Source: Gaiella sp. (GTDB lineage Bacteria > Actinomycetota > Thermoleophilia > Gaiellales > Gaiellaceae). From it: DNA of 64,000 bases. The notes below the pieces were generated by a model. The model saw nothing but the letters and a program-made list of their open reading frames with translations. It made no database searches and was not told where the DNA came from. Location of the stretch: assembly GCA_027493885.1 (NCBI GenBank), contig JAOSJZ010000001.1:2412622-2476621 (forward strand). The letters run 5' to 3'. The position numbers and the translations under genes are program-made. The first letter of the stretch is position 1. Every line of letters starts with the position of its first letter. Positions 1 through 14,070 of the stretch are shown here, piece after piece.

Positions 1-396
1 GGCCCCCTCGAGCACGTCGCGAGCGAGAATCGGCACGGCGAGGATCGACTCGTACTCCTCCTCGCGCAGATTGGGGAACGCCTTGAAGCGCGGGTCGAGG
101 TGAGCCCCGGACGCGATCATGATCGGTCGCCGCTCGTCGGCCGCCACGCCCGTGATCCCGACCCCCCGGCGCATGCGCGGCGCGCTCGTCGCGTCCTCGA
201 TGCGGGTGCCGTGCGTCGCCCGCAGCACGAGCTCGTCCGTGCGCTCGTCGTAGAGGTAGACGAAGCACGCATCCGTCTCGAGCGCGGCCGCCACCTCGTG
301 CGCGATCGCCTCGAGCACGTCCTGCAGGTCGAGGGAGGAATTGACGACGTCGGTCGTCCGCGTCAGGAGCGCCAGGTGGCGGGCGGCATCGTCCAC
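1..396 (-). CDS. GAF-domain protein (N-terminal part, cut by window edge)
   Basis: The 132 visible residues read as the start of a GAF sensory domain: a helical N-terminus with VLEAIAHEVAAAL, then a strand pattern DACFVYLYDE, then the GVGITG turn typical of GAF folds. GAF domains bind small ligands and usually head histidine kinases, adenylate cyclases or phosphatases, but the output domain lies outside the window. The GTG start was chosen because an in-frame TGA lies three codons upstream. A weak palindrome precedes it. Confidence 0.75.
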   Translation of the reverse strand, partial: MDDAARHLALLTRTTDVVNSSLDLQDVLEAIAHEVAAALETDACFVYLYDERTDELVLRATHGTRIEDATSAPRMRRGVGITGVAADERRPIMIASGAHLDPRFKAFPNLREEEYESILAVPILARDVLEGA

Positions 397-1764: not shown

Positions 1765-3183
1765 CTACAGCGAGGACAGGTACCGCCGCTTCTCCCATTC
1801 GCTCACCTGGATGCGGTACTCGTTCCACTCGAGCCGCTTGAGCTCGACGTAGCGCGGGAAGATGTGCTCCCCGAGCGCCCGCGCCATCAGCTCCGATCCG
1901 GCGAGCGCCTCGACCGCCTCGCCGAGCGAGCCGGGAAGCGACTCGACACCCTGTTCCTCCCGCTCGGCGTCGGACAGCCGGTAGAGGTTCGTCGTCATCT
2001 CGTCCGGCAGCGCGTAGCCGCGCTCGATCCCCTCGAGACCCGCGTGGAGCAGGGCCGCAAAGGCAAGGTAGGGGTTGCAGGCCGGGTCGGGGCAGCGGAT
2101 CTCCGCCCGCGTCGCCTGCTCCTCACCCGGCTTGTAGAGCGGGATCCGGATCAGCGCCGAGCGGTTGCGCTGCGACCACGCCACGTAGACGGGCGCCTCG
2201 AAGCCGGGGACGAGTCGCTTGTACGAGTTGACCCACTGCGCGAGCACGGCCGACATCTCGCGCGCGTGGACGAGCAGGCCGGCGATGAACGACTTCGCGG
2301 TCTTCGAAAGGTGGTGCGGGTCCTTCGCGTCGAAGAACTGGTTGCGCCCGTTCTTGAACAGCGACATGTGCGTGTGCATGCCCGAGCCGTTCTCGCCGAA
2401 GAGGGGCTTCGGCATGAAGGTCGCGTAGTAGCCGTGCCAGGCCGCGACCTCCTTCACGATCATCCGGTAGGTGATGCAGTGGTCGGCCATCGCAAGCGCG
2501 TCGGCGTAGCGCATGTCGATCTCGTGCTGTGAGGGCGCCACCTCGTGGTGGTGGTACTCGATCGGGATCCCGACCGACTCGAGTGCGTGGATCGTGTCGT
2601 TGCGCACCTCCGTCGCGGCGTCCTGCGCCGTCATTGCGAAGTAGCCGCCCTCGTCGAGGGTCTTCGTGTCCGAGTCGTCCTCGAAGAGGAAGTACTCGAG
2701 CTCGGGGCCGACATTGAACGTGTCGAAGCCGAGCTTGCGCATCCGCTCGAGCGCCGCCCGCAGGACGAAGCGCGGGTCGCCGTCGTACGGCGTGCCGTCG
2801 GGCCTGACCACGTCGCAGATCATCCGGCCCACCTTCGCCCCGATCTCGTGACCGTGCTCGTCGACCGGTCGGGGGAGCACCCGGAAGGTCTTCGGGTCGG
2901 GGATCGCGACCATGTCGGACTCCTCGATCCGGTTGAAGCCGGTGATCGACGACCCGTCGAAGCCCATCCCGTCGTCGAGCGCATCCGGGATCTCCGACGG
3001 AGTGATCGCAAACGACTTGAGGTGCCCCTCGAGGTCCGTGAACCAGAAGAGGACGTGCTCGATCTCCTCCTCGCGCATCTGCTTCAGGACGGCTCGGCGC
3101 GCCGCGAGGCTCGAGGTCGCGCGGTCCTTCGACTTCACCATCCGGGAGCGGCTCGTCGCCGCGGTCGATCGTGCTCTCGCCAT
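1765..3183 (-). CDS. glnA: Glutamine synthetase, type I
   Basis: 472 residues, the usual GSI length. It makes glutamine from glutamate, ammonia and ATP. The beta-grasp region has GFDGSSI (about residues 74-80), the catalytic domain has GENGSGMHTHMSLF for ATP binding, and the C-terminal tail NLYRLSDAER keeps a Tyr at the position adenylylated in GSI-beta enzymes. The ATG at 3183 follows GGGAGGAG at good spacing; an in-frame TTG at 3207 is less likely. A long GC hairpin lies in the 5' leader. PII and amtB lie 4.5 kb away, so nitrogen assimilation is grouped in this region. Confidence 0.95.
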   Translation of the reverse strand: MARARSTAATSRSRMVKSKDRATSSLAARRAVLKQMREEEIEHVLFWFTDLEGHLKSFAITPSEIPDALDDGMGFDGSSITGFNRIEESDMVAIPDPKTFRVLPRPVDEHGHEIGAKVGRMICDVVRPDGTPYDGDPRFVLRAALERMRKLGFDTFNVGPELEYFLFEDDSDTKTLDEGGYFAMTAQDAATEVRNDTIHALESVGIPIEYHHHEVAPSQHEIDMRYADALAMADHCITYRMIVKEVAAWHGYYATFMPKPLFGENGSGMHTHMSLFKNGRNQFFDAKDPHHLSKTAKSFIAGLLVHAREMSAVLAQWVNSYKRLVPGFEAPVYVAWSQRNRSALIRIPLYKPGEEQATRAEIRCPDPACNPYLAFAALLHAGLEGIERGYALPDEMTTNLYRLSDAEREEQGVESLPGSLGEAVEALAGSELMARALGEHIFPRYVELKRLEWNEYRIQVSEWEKRRYLSSL

Positions 3184-3208
3184 CGGTGCTCCTCCCTTGA
3201 ACGACAAA

Positions 3209-3243
3209 GGGCCTCGGGCACGGATGCTCCGCGCCCGAGGCCC
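3209..3243 (-). promoter_or_regulatory. glnA leader hairpin, possible attenuator
   Basis: Perfect 11-bp arms GGGCCTCGGGC and GCCCGAGGCCC flank a 13-nt loop. On the glnA strand it is followed by TTTGTCGTT and then the ribosome site. A TAGGCT -10-like box lies upstream around 3269-3274, so the hairpin would be transcribed. It could act as a weak terminator/attenuator or mRNA stabiliser. Confidence 0.4.
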
Positions 3244-3497
3244 CGTTGCCTCGAAGACGGCAGAGAGCCTAGCAGCCGGGGCGGAGGGGCTTGCCAGGTG
3301 CTCGGTGTTGACTCCCGTTCACAAGTCGCACGGCCGGTGGGGGTGATAGGCTCCTGACCTTCCGTTACCGGCCACGTGCCGACGCCACGCATGCCCCCCA
3401 TGCAAAGCGACTCGAATCCCCAGCGGAAGCGCCGTACCGCGCGTGTTCACGCCGCCGCGGTCGCTCCTGTCCCCCACTCAGGAGGCGTACTCAACGC

Positions 3498-7398: not shown

Positions 7399-7490
7399 GA
7401 CGGACCGATGGGCGATGCCCGAGTTGCGCTTGCGCTCCGACCGTCGCGACCTCTAAGCTGCCTCGCAGGCGGGTCGACGTCGCTCCCGCC
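7399..7490 (+). ncRNA. Structured leader RNA candidate upstream of PII-amt
   Basis: GACGG (7399-7403) can pair with CCGTC (7441-7445), enclosing two hairpins: GGGC-GAT-GCCC (7410-7420) and GCGC-TT-GCGC (7426-7435). A second hairpin GGCGGG/CCCGCC spans 7468-7490, and the terminator hairpin follows within 10 bases. Together they resemble an attenuation leader. It matches no riboswitch class I recognise. Confidence 0.35.
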
Positions 7491-7500
7491 GATGGCAACG

Positions 7501-7538
7501 AAGCCTCGTCTCTCCCGCGGGAGAGGTGGGGCTTTTTT
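7501..7538 (+). terminator. Intrinsic terminator in the PII-amt leader
   Basis: A continuous 16-bp stem (7501-7516 with 7519-7534, including three G-U pairs) closes on GC and runs into six T residues. It is the clearest intrinsic terminator in the window. It lies before, not after, the PII-amtB genes, so it either ends an upstream transcript or acts as an attenuator. Confidence 0.75.
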
Positions 7539-7563
7539 CGTGGACCGAGGGAAGGAGACGGTG

Positions 7564-7713
7564 ATGGCAGAGAACCGCGAGACCCCCACCGGGACTCCCG
7601 TGCGTCTGAGCGCGCGGCACTTTCGGCCCGGCTCGCGCCGGCCCGCCGCGCGGCGACCGCGCGTGGCGAGCACCGCCAGGAGCTCCCGCCGCAGGAAGGT
7701 GGGGTCACCGTGA
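7564..7713 (+). CDS. Arg-rich 49-residue leader peptide candidate
   Basis: A short frame preceded by GGAAGGAGACGGTG, the best ribosome site nearby. The peptide begins MAENRETPTGTPVRLS and becomes strongly basic (RRPAARRPRV, SSRRRK). Its TGA overlaps the PII start, so PII translation could depend on it. It sits directly after the leader terminator. I recognise no family; it could be a leader peptide, an RNA-binding micro-protein or a fortuitous frame. Confidence 0.45.
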   Translation: MAENRETPTGTPVRLSARHFRPGSRRPAARRPRVASTARSSRRRKVGSP

Positions 7714-8060
7714 TGAAGGTCGAGGCGGTCGTCGTCCGCGACCGCGTCGAGACCGTGATGGAGGCAGTCGAGGCGGAGACCGGGCACGTCGGCGTCACGG
7801 TCGTCGAGGCCGTCGGCCACGGGCGCGAGAAGGGGATCACGCACGAGTACCGCGGCCGCGTCTTCGAGTCCCGGTTCCTACCGAAAGCGCACCTGACCTT
7901 TGTCGTACGTGACGAGATCGCCGAGGAGGTGATCGCTGCGGTCGTCGACGCGGCCCGAACCGGCCATGTGAACGGTGACGGGATCTGCTGGATGTCCCCG
8001 GTCTACGCGGTGACGCACAACCGCACCGGGCAGCGGCTGGAGGAGAGGGAGCGCGTATGA
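7713..8060 (+). CDS. glnK: PII-family nitrogen signalling protein, divergent
   Basis: 115 residues aligning without gaps to PII through the T-loop: GHGREKGITHEYRG then FLPKAH. PII trimers sense ATP/ADP and 2-oxoglutarate and block AmtB. Tyr46 is kept, but Tyr51, the residue uridylylated or adenylylated in other bacteria, is Phe; Gln39, which contacts Mg-ATP and 2-oxoglutarate, is Glu; and the Lys90 position (GDGK) reads GDGI. Ligand binding or signalling is therefore probably altered. The GTG at 7710 is an alternative start. It overlaps amtB by four bases, the usual glnK-amtB pairing. Confidence 0.85.
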   Translation: MKVEAVVVRDRVETVMEAVEAETGHVGVTVVEAVGHGREKGITHEYRGRVFESRFLPKAHLTFVVRDEIAEEVIAAVVDAARTGHVNGDGICWMSPVYAVTHNRTGQRLEERERV

Positions 8061-9445
8061 GCACGCGCGAGCTGGCGATCGCGGCGAGCACGATCTGGGT
8101 CGTCCTCGCTGCGATTCTCGTGCTGTTCATGCAGGCGGGCTTCGCCTTCCTCGAGGCGGGTCTGACGCGGATGAAGAACGTCGGTCATATCGCGGCGAAG
8201 AACGTCCTCATCCTCGGCGTCGTCTCCATCGTCTATTACCTCGTCGGCTTCGGGATCGCGTTCGGCGACGGCGGCGGCGGGCTCGTCGGCGGCTCGGGGT
8301 TTGCGCCGTCGGTCGAGGAGCTCCTCGCGATCGGCGCCGCGCCGTTCTCCTGGTTCTCGGCGATCCCGGCCGCGGCCGGGTACCTGTTCGAGGTGGCGTT
8401 CGCGGCCGTCTCGCTCGCGATCGTCTGGGGGGCGATGGCCGAGCGCACGCGCCTCTGGGTCTACCTTGCGTTCGGGATCGTCTTCACGTTGATCTACGCC
8501 GTCGTCGCGCACTGGATCTGGAGCCCCGACGGGTGGCTCTTCTCGAAGGGGATGCAGGACTTTGCCGGCTCGACCGTCGTCCACTACCAGGGTGCGCTCG
8601 CGGGGCTCGCAGGGACGCTGCTCCTCGGGCCGCGGATCGGGAAGTTCGTCGACGGGAAGGCGCAGCCGATCCCCGGCCACAACATGGCGTACACGACGCT
8701 CGGGGTGATCGTGCTCTGGTTCGGGTGGTTCGGGTTCAACCCCGGCTCGACCCTGTCGGTCGACCTCGGGGGCGTCGGCTTCTTCGCGTACGTCGCCATG
8801 AACACGAACCTCGCGGCGGCCGCCGGCGTCCTCGGCGCGGTCGCAGCCTCGTGGATCGTGATCGGCAAGCCCGACCTGTCGATGATGCTGAACGGCGCCA
8901 TCGCCGCGCTCGTCGCGATCACCGCCGCCTGCGCGTTCGTCGCGCCGTGGGCCGCGATCCTCATCGGATTCGTCGCGGGCGTGATCGTGGTGCTCGGCTC
9001 GTTGCTCGTCGAGCGGCTCGGGATCGACGATCCCGTGGGCGCGCTCGCCGCGCACGGCATGTCCGGAGTCTGGGGAACGCTCTCCCTCGGGTTCCTCACC
9101 GTGCCGGCGCTGGCGGACCGGCTCGAGACCGGCTCGGGCGGCCTCCTCTACGGCGGCGGCATCCACCAGCTCGGGATCCAGCTCCTGGGCCTCGCCGTCG
9201 TCGCGGCATTCACGTTCACGGCGTCGTTCCTCGTGCTCTGGCTGATGAAGGTGACGGTCGGGATCCGCGCCGAACCGCACGTCGAGACGATGGGCCTCGA
9301 CGTCTCGGAGCACGGGATGTGGGGCTACCCCGAGCTCTACATCCCGGTCCCCGGCGGCTACGGGACGGAGCACCATGGCCCGCACGCGGTGCGCACGCCA
9401 CGAGCGGGCCACCGGCCGGCGCCCGCGACCACGGGCGCCGGCTGA
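8057..9445 (+). CDS. amtB: Ammonium transporter
   Basis: 462 residues with eleven predicted membrane helices. The twin pore histidines are in STVVHYQGALAGL and ALAAHGMSGVWGTL, and the family end motif GLDVSEHGMWGYPE precedes a roughly 45-residue Pro/His/Gly-rich tail. AmtB conducts ammonium/ammonia across the cytoplasmic membrane and is gated by PII, encoded just upstream with an ATGA overlap. There is no signal peptide typical of enterobacterial AmtB. Confidence 0.95.
   Translation: MSTRELAIAASTIWVVLAAILVLFMQAGFAFLEAGLTRMKNVGHIAAKNVLILGVVSIVYYLVGFGIAFGDGGGGLVGGSGFAPSVEELLAIGAAPFSWFSAIPAAAGYLFEVAFAAVSLAIVWGAMAERTRLWVYLAFGIVFTLIYAVVAHWIWSPDGWLFSKGMQDFAGSTVVHYQGALAGLAGTLLLGPRIGKFVDGKAQPIPGHNMAYTTLGVIVLWFGWFGFNPGSTLSVDLGGVGFFAYVAMNTNLAAAAGVLGAVAASWIVIGKPDLSMMLNGAIAALVAITAACAFVAPWAAILIGFVAGVIVVLGSLLVERLGIDDPVGALAAHGMSGVWGTLSLGFLTVPALADRLETGSGGLLYGGGIHQLGIQLLGLAVVAAFTFTASFLVLWLMKVTVGIRAEPHVETMGLDVSEHGMWGYPELYIPVPGGYGTEHHGPHAVRTPRAGHRPAPATTGAG

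Positions 9446-12067: not shown

Positions 12068-14070
<2,003 letters not shown>

Follow-up and report, generated by a model that had tools for sequence, protein, structure and literature searches.

The 64,000-nucleotide stretch of the Gaiella sp. genome analysed here (hereafter the window; assembly GCA_027493885.1, contig JAOSJZ010000001.1) raises the question of how an operon for ammonium uptake, PII-amtB, is controlled by the structured leader that precedes it. The original prediction, drawn for positions 7399-7538, described the layout of a riboswitch or a peptide attenuator and recognised no known class. Our analysis supports a transcription attenuator ahead of the ammonium-uptake genes, and very probably one that is controlled by a protein, of the ANTAR kind. 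The targets of ANTAR antiterminators are dual-hexaloop RNAs (PMC3369931), and the leader is recognisable as a target of this type (PMC3369931, PMC8164766). The ANTAR-type switch is already known, whereas its occurrence in this lineage, together with a one-hairpin version discussed below, appears to be undescribed: a search of open-licence papers on ANTAR with a single hexaloop, Thermoleophilia, glnA or amtB did not find this case.

The anatomy of the leader, on the plus strand, begins with a G+C-rich hairpin 5' of the terminator, P1 (7468-7490), with a hexaloop GACGUC at 7476-7481 closed by the pair C7475-G7482. This is the second hairpin of the original prediction, and we confirm it. After a short linker (3 nucleotides in the window, 7491-7493) comes P2 (7494-7505), a candidate antiterminator hairpin of sequence GGC-AACGAA-GCC whose hexaloop (7497-7502) has A at position 1 and G at position 4. 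The intrinsic terminator (7503-7538) consists of a core stem within 7503-7532 followed by T6 at 7533-7538. A strong terminator with T6 had been correctly seen, but its stem was put at 16 base pairs; the core has only 13, and sixteen are reached only if three U of the T-run are paired. The RNA from 7467 to 7505, that is, the nascent transcript before the terminator, has P1 and P2 as its minimum free energy fold, the latter displaying an open six-base loop, and the RNA from 7467 to 7545 folds into P1 and the terminator. The 3' arm of P2 is the first part of the 5' arm of the terminator, and thus P2 and the terminator are mutually exclusive.

Taken as a whole, the 140 nucleotides (7399-7538) have an unremarkable folding energy (z -1.61); the evidence for the leader is comparative. 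When relatives were searched by BLAST, the block 7438-7550 was matched and 7399-7437 was not; within the genus the matches precede PII, and in other genera they precede glutamine synthetase. The same search against its own genome gave no second full copy. A pattern search recovered 20 leaders in 19 genomes, and the reversed control pattern none. Aligning 17 leaders that bear P1 gives a constant order of P1, a short linker, the core GGC-AAYGNN-GCC and the terminator. The original prediction had proposed to look for covariation in homologous leaders, and it is found: across P1 and the terminator, 91.4 percent of the cells are paired and 10/18 pairs show two-sided changes, including five of the seven pairs of P1. 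The covariation score reaches 0.393, compared with 0.145 for shuffled and at most 0.118 for slid versions, the slid controls being somewhat flattering as the structure was derived from the 17 leaders themselves. The dual-leader covariance model made from these 17 seed leaders finds the window leader with 69 bits (E 3e-15 in the window, 1.6e-13 genome-wide), partly by construction, since the window leader is a seed member. P1 lay outside the search pattern. The core belonged to it, so that its invariance in the 17 leaders is by selection, and loop statistics from the pattern matches were set aside as circular because the pattern fixed R1 and G4. The core was therefore tested on 91 further distinct matches of the model outside the seed. 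There the sequence of P2 is nearly invariant, and loop position 4 is G in 80/84 cases for P1 and in 89/91 for P2.

A conserved promoter probably delimits the part of this region that is RNA. The -10 box TAAGCT (7454-7459, plus strand; TANNNT) is conserved in position, and 18 nucleotides 5' of it we read a -35-like hexamer TTGCGC (7430-7435), with TTGNNN equally spaced in many relatives. In most leaders that bear P1, TANNNT lies 38-44 nucleotides 5' of P2, often accompanied by TTGAC or TTGC a further 17-18 nucleotides upstream. In the GSIa, PII and GSII sets, TANNNT is 3-4 times as frequent at that position as in shuffled sequences. A scan of the leader for the strict sigma-70 consensus gave no match, and thus the promoter call rests on conservation. 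The transcript probably starts near 7467, at the foot of P1, and the predicted transcripts of dual leaders begin about 30 nucleotides 5' of P2; the predicted start is upstream of 7538, not downstream of it as a refutation of the original prediction would have had it. Because 7399-7455 lies at and upstream of the conserved -10 box, it is most likely promoter DNA that is not transcribed. The three-way-junction-like fold previously assigned to it does not hold up, as it forms a single irregular hairpin (z -1.18), with 18/200 shuffles equally or more stable.

Only a single ANTAR gene is present in the genome. It lies outside the window, 1.4 kb to the left (L050 7007-7573), at a distance of 9 kb from the leader and downstream of glnA. 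Its product has Response_reg and ANTAR domains, i.e. it is a receiver-ANTAR (REC-ANTAR) response regulator, similar to EutV (E 5e-38) and Rv1626 (E 1e-49). The RNA-contact residues of EutV (PMC8934654) were mapped onto it by protein alignment, using a manually derived numbering offset: R142, K143, K149 and E160 are conserved, while K147 is replaced by R, Y164 by F and M172 by Q. Replacing Y164 by F retains the aromatic ring, which stacks on loop G4. The adjoining kinase gene reaches into the window with its N-terminal GAF part (1-396, minus strand), its 3' part lying to the left; in a close relative it is intact and has GAF, HisKA_2 and HATPase domains. Kinase and regulator form one continuous frame in L050 (7007-9018) and L159, and are separate genes in L162 and L168.

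RNA and protein also go together across genomes. The dual-leader model has matches in 85/129 genomes of the order, and among 349 genomes sampled across the class its matches fall almost solely in this order, with one listed genome outside it. ANTAR is present in 117/129 genomes of the order; 83/117 genomes with ANTAR carry the RNA, against 2/12 without (Fisher p 3.6e-4, uncorrected for ancestry), and both RNA-positive genomes without ANTAR (2/85) are incomplete. RNA match and ANTAR gene lie no more than 12 kb apart in 32 genomes and, where gene order was traced by coordinates, the ANTAR gene is 3' of the glnA leader and shares its strand. The genes behind the distinct leaders examined are PII-amtB, other amt genes, two GSI types and GSII. 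In this setting it is relevant that ANTAR RNA matches have been reported before P-II, ammonium transporter and glutamine synthase genes (PMC3369931).

The leader shares with the ANTAR-target RNAs of Firmicutes and Proteobacteria (EutV/eut, NasR/nasF, AmiR/amiE; PMC3369931) the two small hexaloop hairpins with G at loop position 4, the overlap of the second hairpin with the 5' arm of the terminator, nitrogen genes downstream and an ANTAR gene in the genome. It differs from them in that position 1 of the P1 loop is mostly G instead of A, in the 3-nucleotide linker of the window, in its Thermoleophilia host, and in a family-specific P2 (GAGGCRAYGNNGCCUC) and GGWCC box after the T-run. The actinobacterial ANTAR RNAs (PMC8164766) have the same dual hairpin and come from a related host group; in contrast to these, the RNAs described here are coupled to a terminator and lie ahead of core nitrogen-assimilation genes. 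When the text of that paper was searched for glutamine, ammonium, Thermoleophilia and Gaiella, no mention of them was found.

Several observations weigh against an ANTAR attenuator. A is expected at position 1 of both loops, and it is present in P2; in P1 this position is G, in the window and in 68/82 further matches. Thus, we file the leader as a variant of the ANTAR-target RNA, a treatment we adopt because A1 is not contacted (PMC8934654) and is conserved in only more than 50 percent (PMC8164766). In the window, moreover, G1 and C6 of the P1 loop can pair, leaving a loop of four. On the protein side, EutV Met172, essential for RNA binding (PMC8934654), is replaced by Gln in the window protein and in most of the aligned relatives that bear the leader, a departure for which we have no explanation. 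In this assembly there is a break in the kinase reading frame (L050 8581-8584, immediately to the left of window position 1). Finally, the co-occurrence test takes no account of shared ancestry. A GroEL-like frame elsewhere in the window (12411-14043, minus strand) also looks split, at about 13200, and both breaks may be assembly indels.

A second leader in the window bears on how much of this structure is needed. In front of glnA, which encodes a glutamine synthetase of the GSIb type (1765-3183, minus strand; Gln-synt_C E 3.9e-131), lies a single-hexaloop leader (3197-3262, minus strand) in which P2, GAGGC-AACGGG-GCCUC (3252-3237), overlaps the terminator and P1 is missing. A glnA-leader covariance model with 15 seed rows finds it with 57.6 bits (E 8.6e-11 genome-wide; the window glnA is one of the rows), and the dual-leader model also matches it (E 0.0056 in the window). 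In the window genome the top two matches of each model are the same two sites, amtB and glnA, the second-best being weak when taken alone (E 0.29 and 0.37 genome-wide). The -10 box of glnA, TAGGCT (3266-3271, minus strand), is conserved in position: in most GSIb-type glnA leaders of the window's family TANNNT is found 16-25 nucleotides 5' of P2, so that only about 10 nucleotides of transcript precede P2. A search for P1 found none in the 15 glnA leaders of this family (mean score 7.1, shuffled 7.3), in contrast to 79 other leaders (mean 19.2, shuffled 8.4). In a sister family, four glnA leaders have a P1 candidate, two of them clear and two weaker, for which reason P1 may have been lost in the window's family. 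What is kept is the rest: without exception, the 15 glnA leaders have AGGC ahead of the loop, A as its second base and G as its fourth, and their terminator covaries. Given a start too near P2 to leave room for P1, and the conservation of P2, its loop and the terminator, we see roughly even chances that these are natural one-hexaloop ANTAR attenuators. The minimal ANTAR site was redefined as one hexaloop from the structure of EutV with its RNA, although a one-hexaloop attenuator was not demonstrated there (PMC8934654). The glnA leaders agree with that site in having one hexaloop with G4; while the proposal chiefly concerned sites at which no transcribing polymerase sets a time limit, here we would have a candidate for a natural, terminator-coupled attenuator.

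How else could these leaders be explained? The nitrogen genes downstream and the terminator would suit a metabolite riboswitch, for example for glutamine or ammonium, with the 5' structure as its aptamer and the terminator as its expression platform; one class of glutamine riboswitches (glnA RNA) is known from other bacteria. Nevertheless, that 5' structure is no more stable than chance, sits at and upstream of the conserved -10 box and is outside the conserved block, so that what resembles an aptamer is most likely promoter, and after its removal only two tiny hairpins remain. Moreover, the leader matches no Rfam family, glutamine riboswitches included, at gathering scores or at E up to 10, nor do six relatives at gathering scores. 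We consider a riboswitch highly improbable. Even less credit can be given to the other layout originally put forward, a peptide attenuator in which translation of a short frame through P2 would choose between terminator and antiterminator. An ATG at 7492 does start a frame that runs through the terminator, but it is absent from the relatives, most of which have GAGGCAAYG or GAGGCGAYG at that place, and no conserved open reading frame, hence no conserved leader peptide, is found in the predicted transcripts.

There is also a small chance that the element is a plain partial terminator that fixes the level of expression, with the hexaloops being incidental. The glnA version, which does without P1, speaks for this idea. 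However, termination requires neither P1 nor the 5' arm of P2, yet both are kept, P1 with covariation and the P2 core nearly invariant; AGGC and loop G4 are invariant in the very leaders that lack P1, and the linkage to the ANTAR gene would be left aside.

For the ANTAR attenuator, we infer protein binding, the direction of control and the signal as follows. Transcription would begin near 7467 and, without the regulator, P1 would fold and then the terminator, ending the RNA at about 7538, so that the default state would be off. The neighbouring GAF/HisKA_2 kinase would activate the response regulator, whose ANTAR domains would bind the P1 hexaloop and then that of P2. With P2 held closed, the terminator would lose its 5' arm and RNA polymerase would continue into PII-amtB. 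The glnA gene would be under the same regulator, and sharing it would make PII-amtB and glnA a small nitrogen-assimilation regulon, presumably on under nitrogen shortage.

Downstream of the leader lie the genes for the PII signal protein (7713-8060, plus strand; Pfam P-II E 7.6e-15) and the ammonium transporter AmtB (8057-9445, plus strand; Ammonium_transp E 2.5e-112), whose closest named relative, 82 percent identical, comes from a Thermoleophilia metagenome-assembled genome. Between terminator and PII there is a 49-codon open reading frame with a good ribosome site (7564-7713, plus strand), unlike in L002, L003 and L012, where PII follows the terminator directly; Pfam gave no match for the overlapping frames 7408-7713 and 7564-7713. 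Right after the T-run, the CGTGGACC box (7539-7546, plus strand) is kept in the dual leaders. In its general form, CGTGGWCC, this box abuts the T-run, with GGWCC in 14/17 aligned dual leaders and 0/15 glnA leaders. Pairing with the 5' arm of the terminator, judged by eye, is possible in some leaders and impossible in others, the window included, and was dropped; no pairing partner for the box was found. Some amt genes are preceded by tandem pairs of such attenuators (L060, L071, L119, L125, L128, L135), the second beginning directly after the first T-run. As for records that carry a name, the amt leader of another Thermoleophilia metagenome-assembled genome (L174) has the canonical A1 and G4 in both loops, and that of a Desulfofundulus (L223) is a weak match (E 0.018).

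This work offers a concrete RNA-antitermination mechanism for the control of ammonium uptake and assimilation in a little-studied and mostly uncultured lineage. If the glnA leaders answer to the same ANTAR protein, one hexaloop would be enough for regulated antitermination in cells, and both designs, two-hairpin and one-hairpin, would exist side by side in one genome. Two leader designs under one ANTAR protein would thus provide natural sequences with which to test whether ANTAR antitermination needs two hexaloops.
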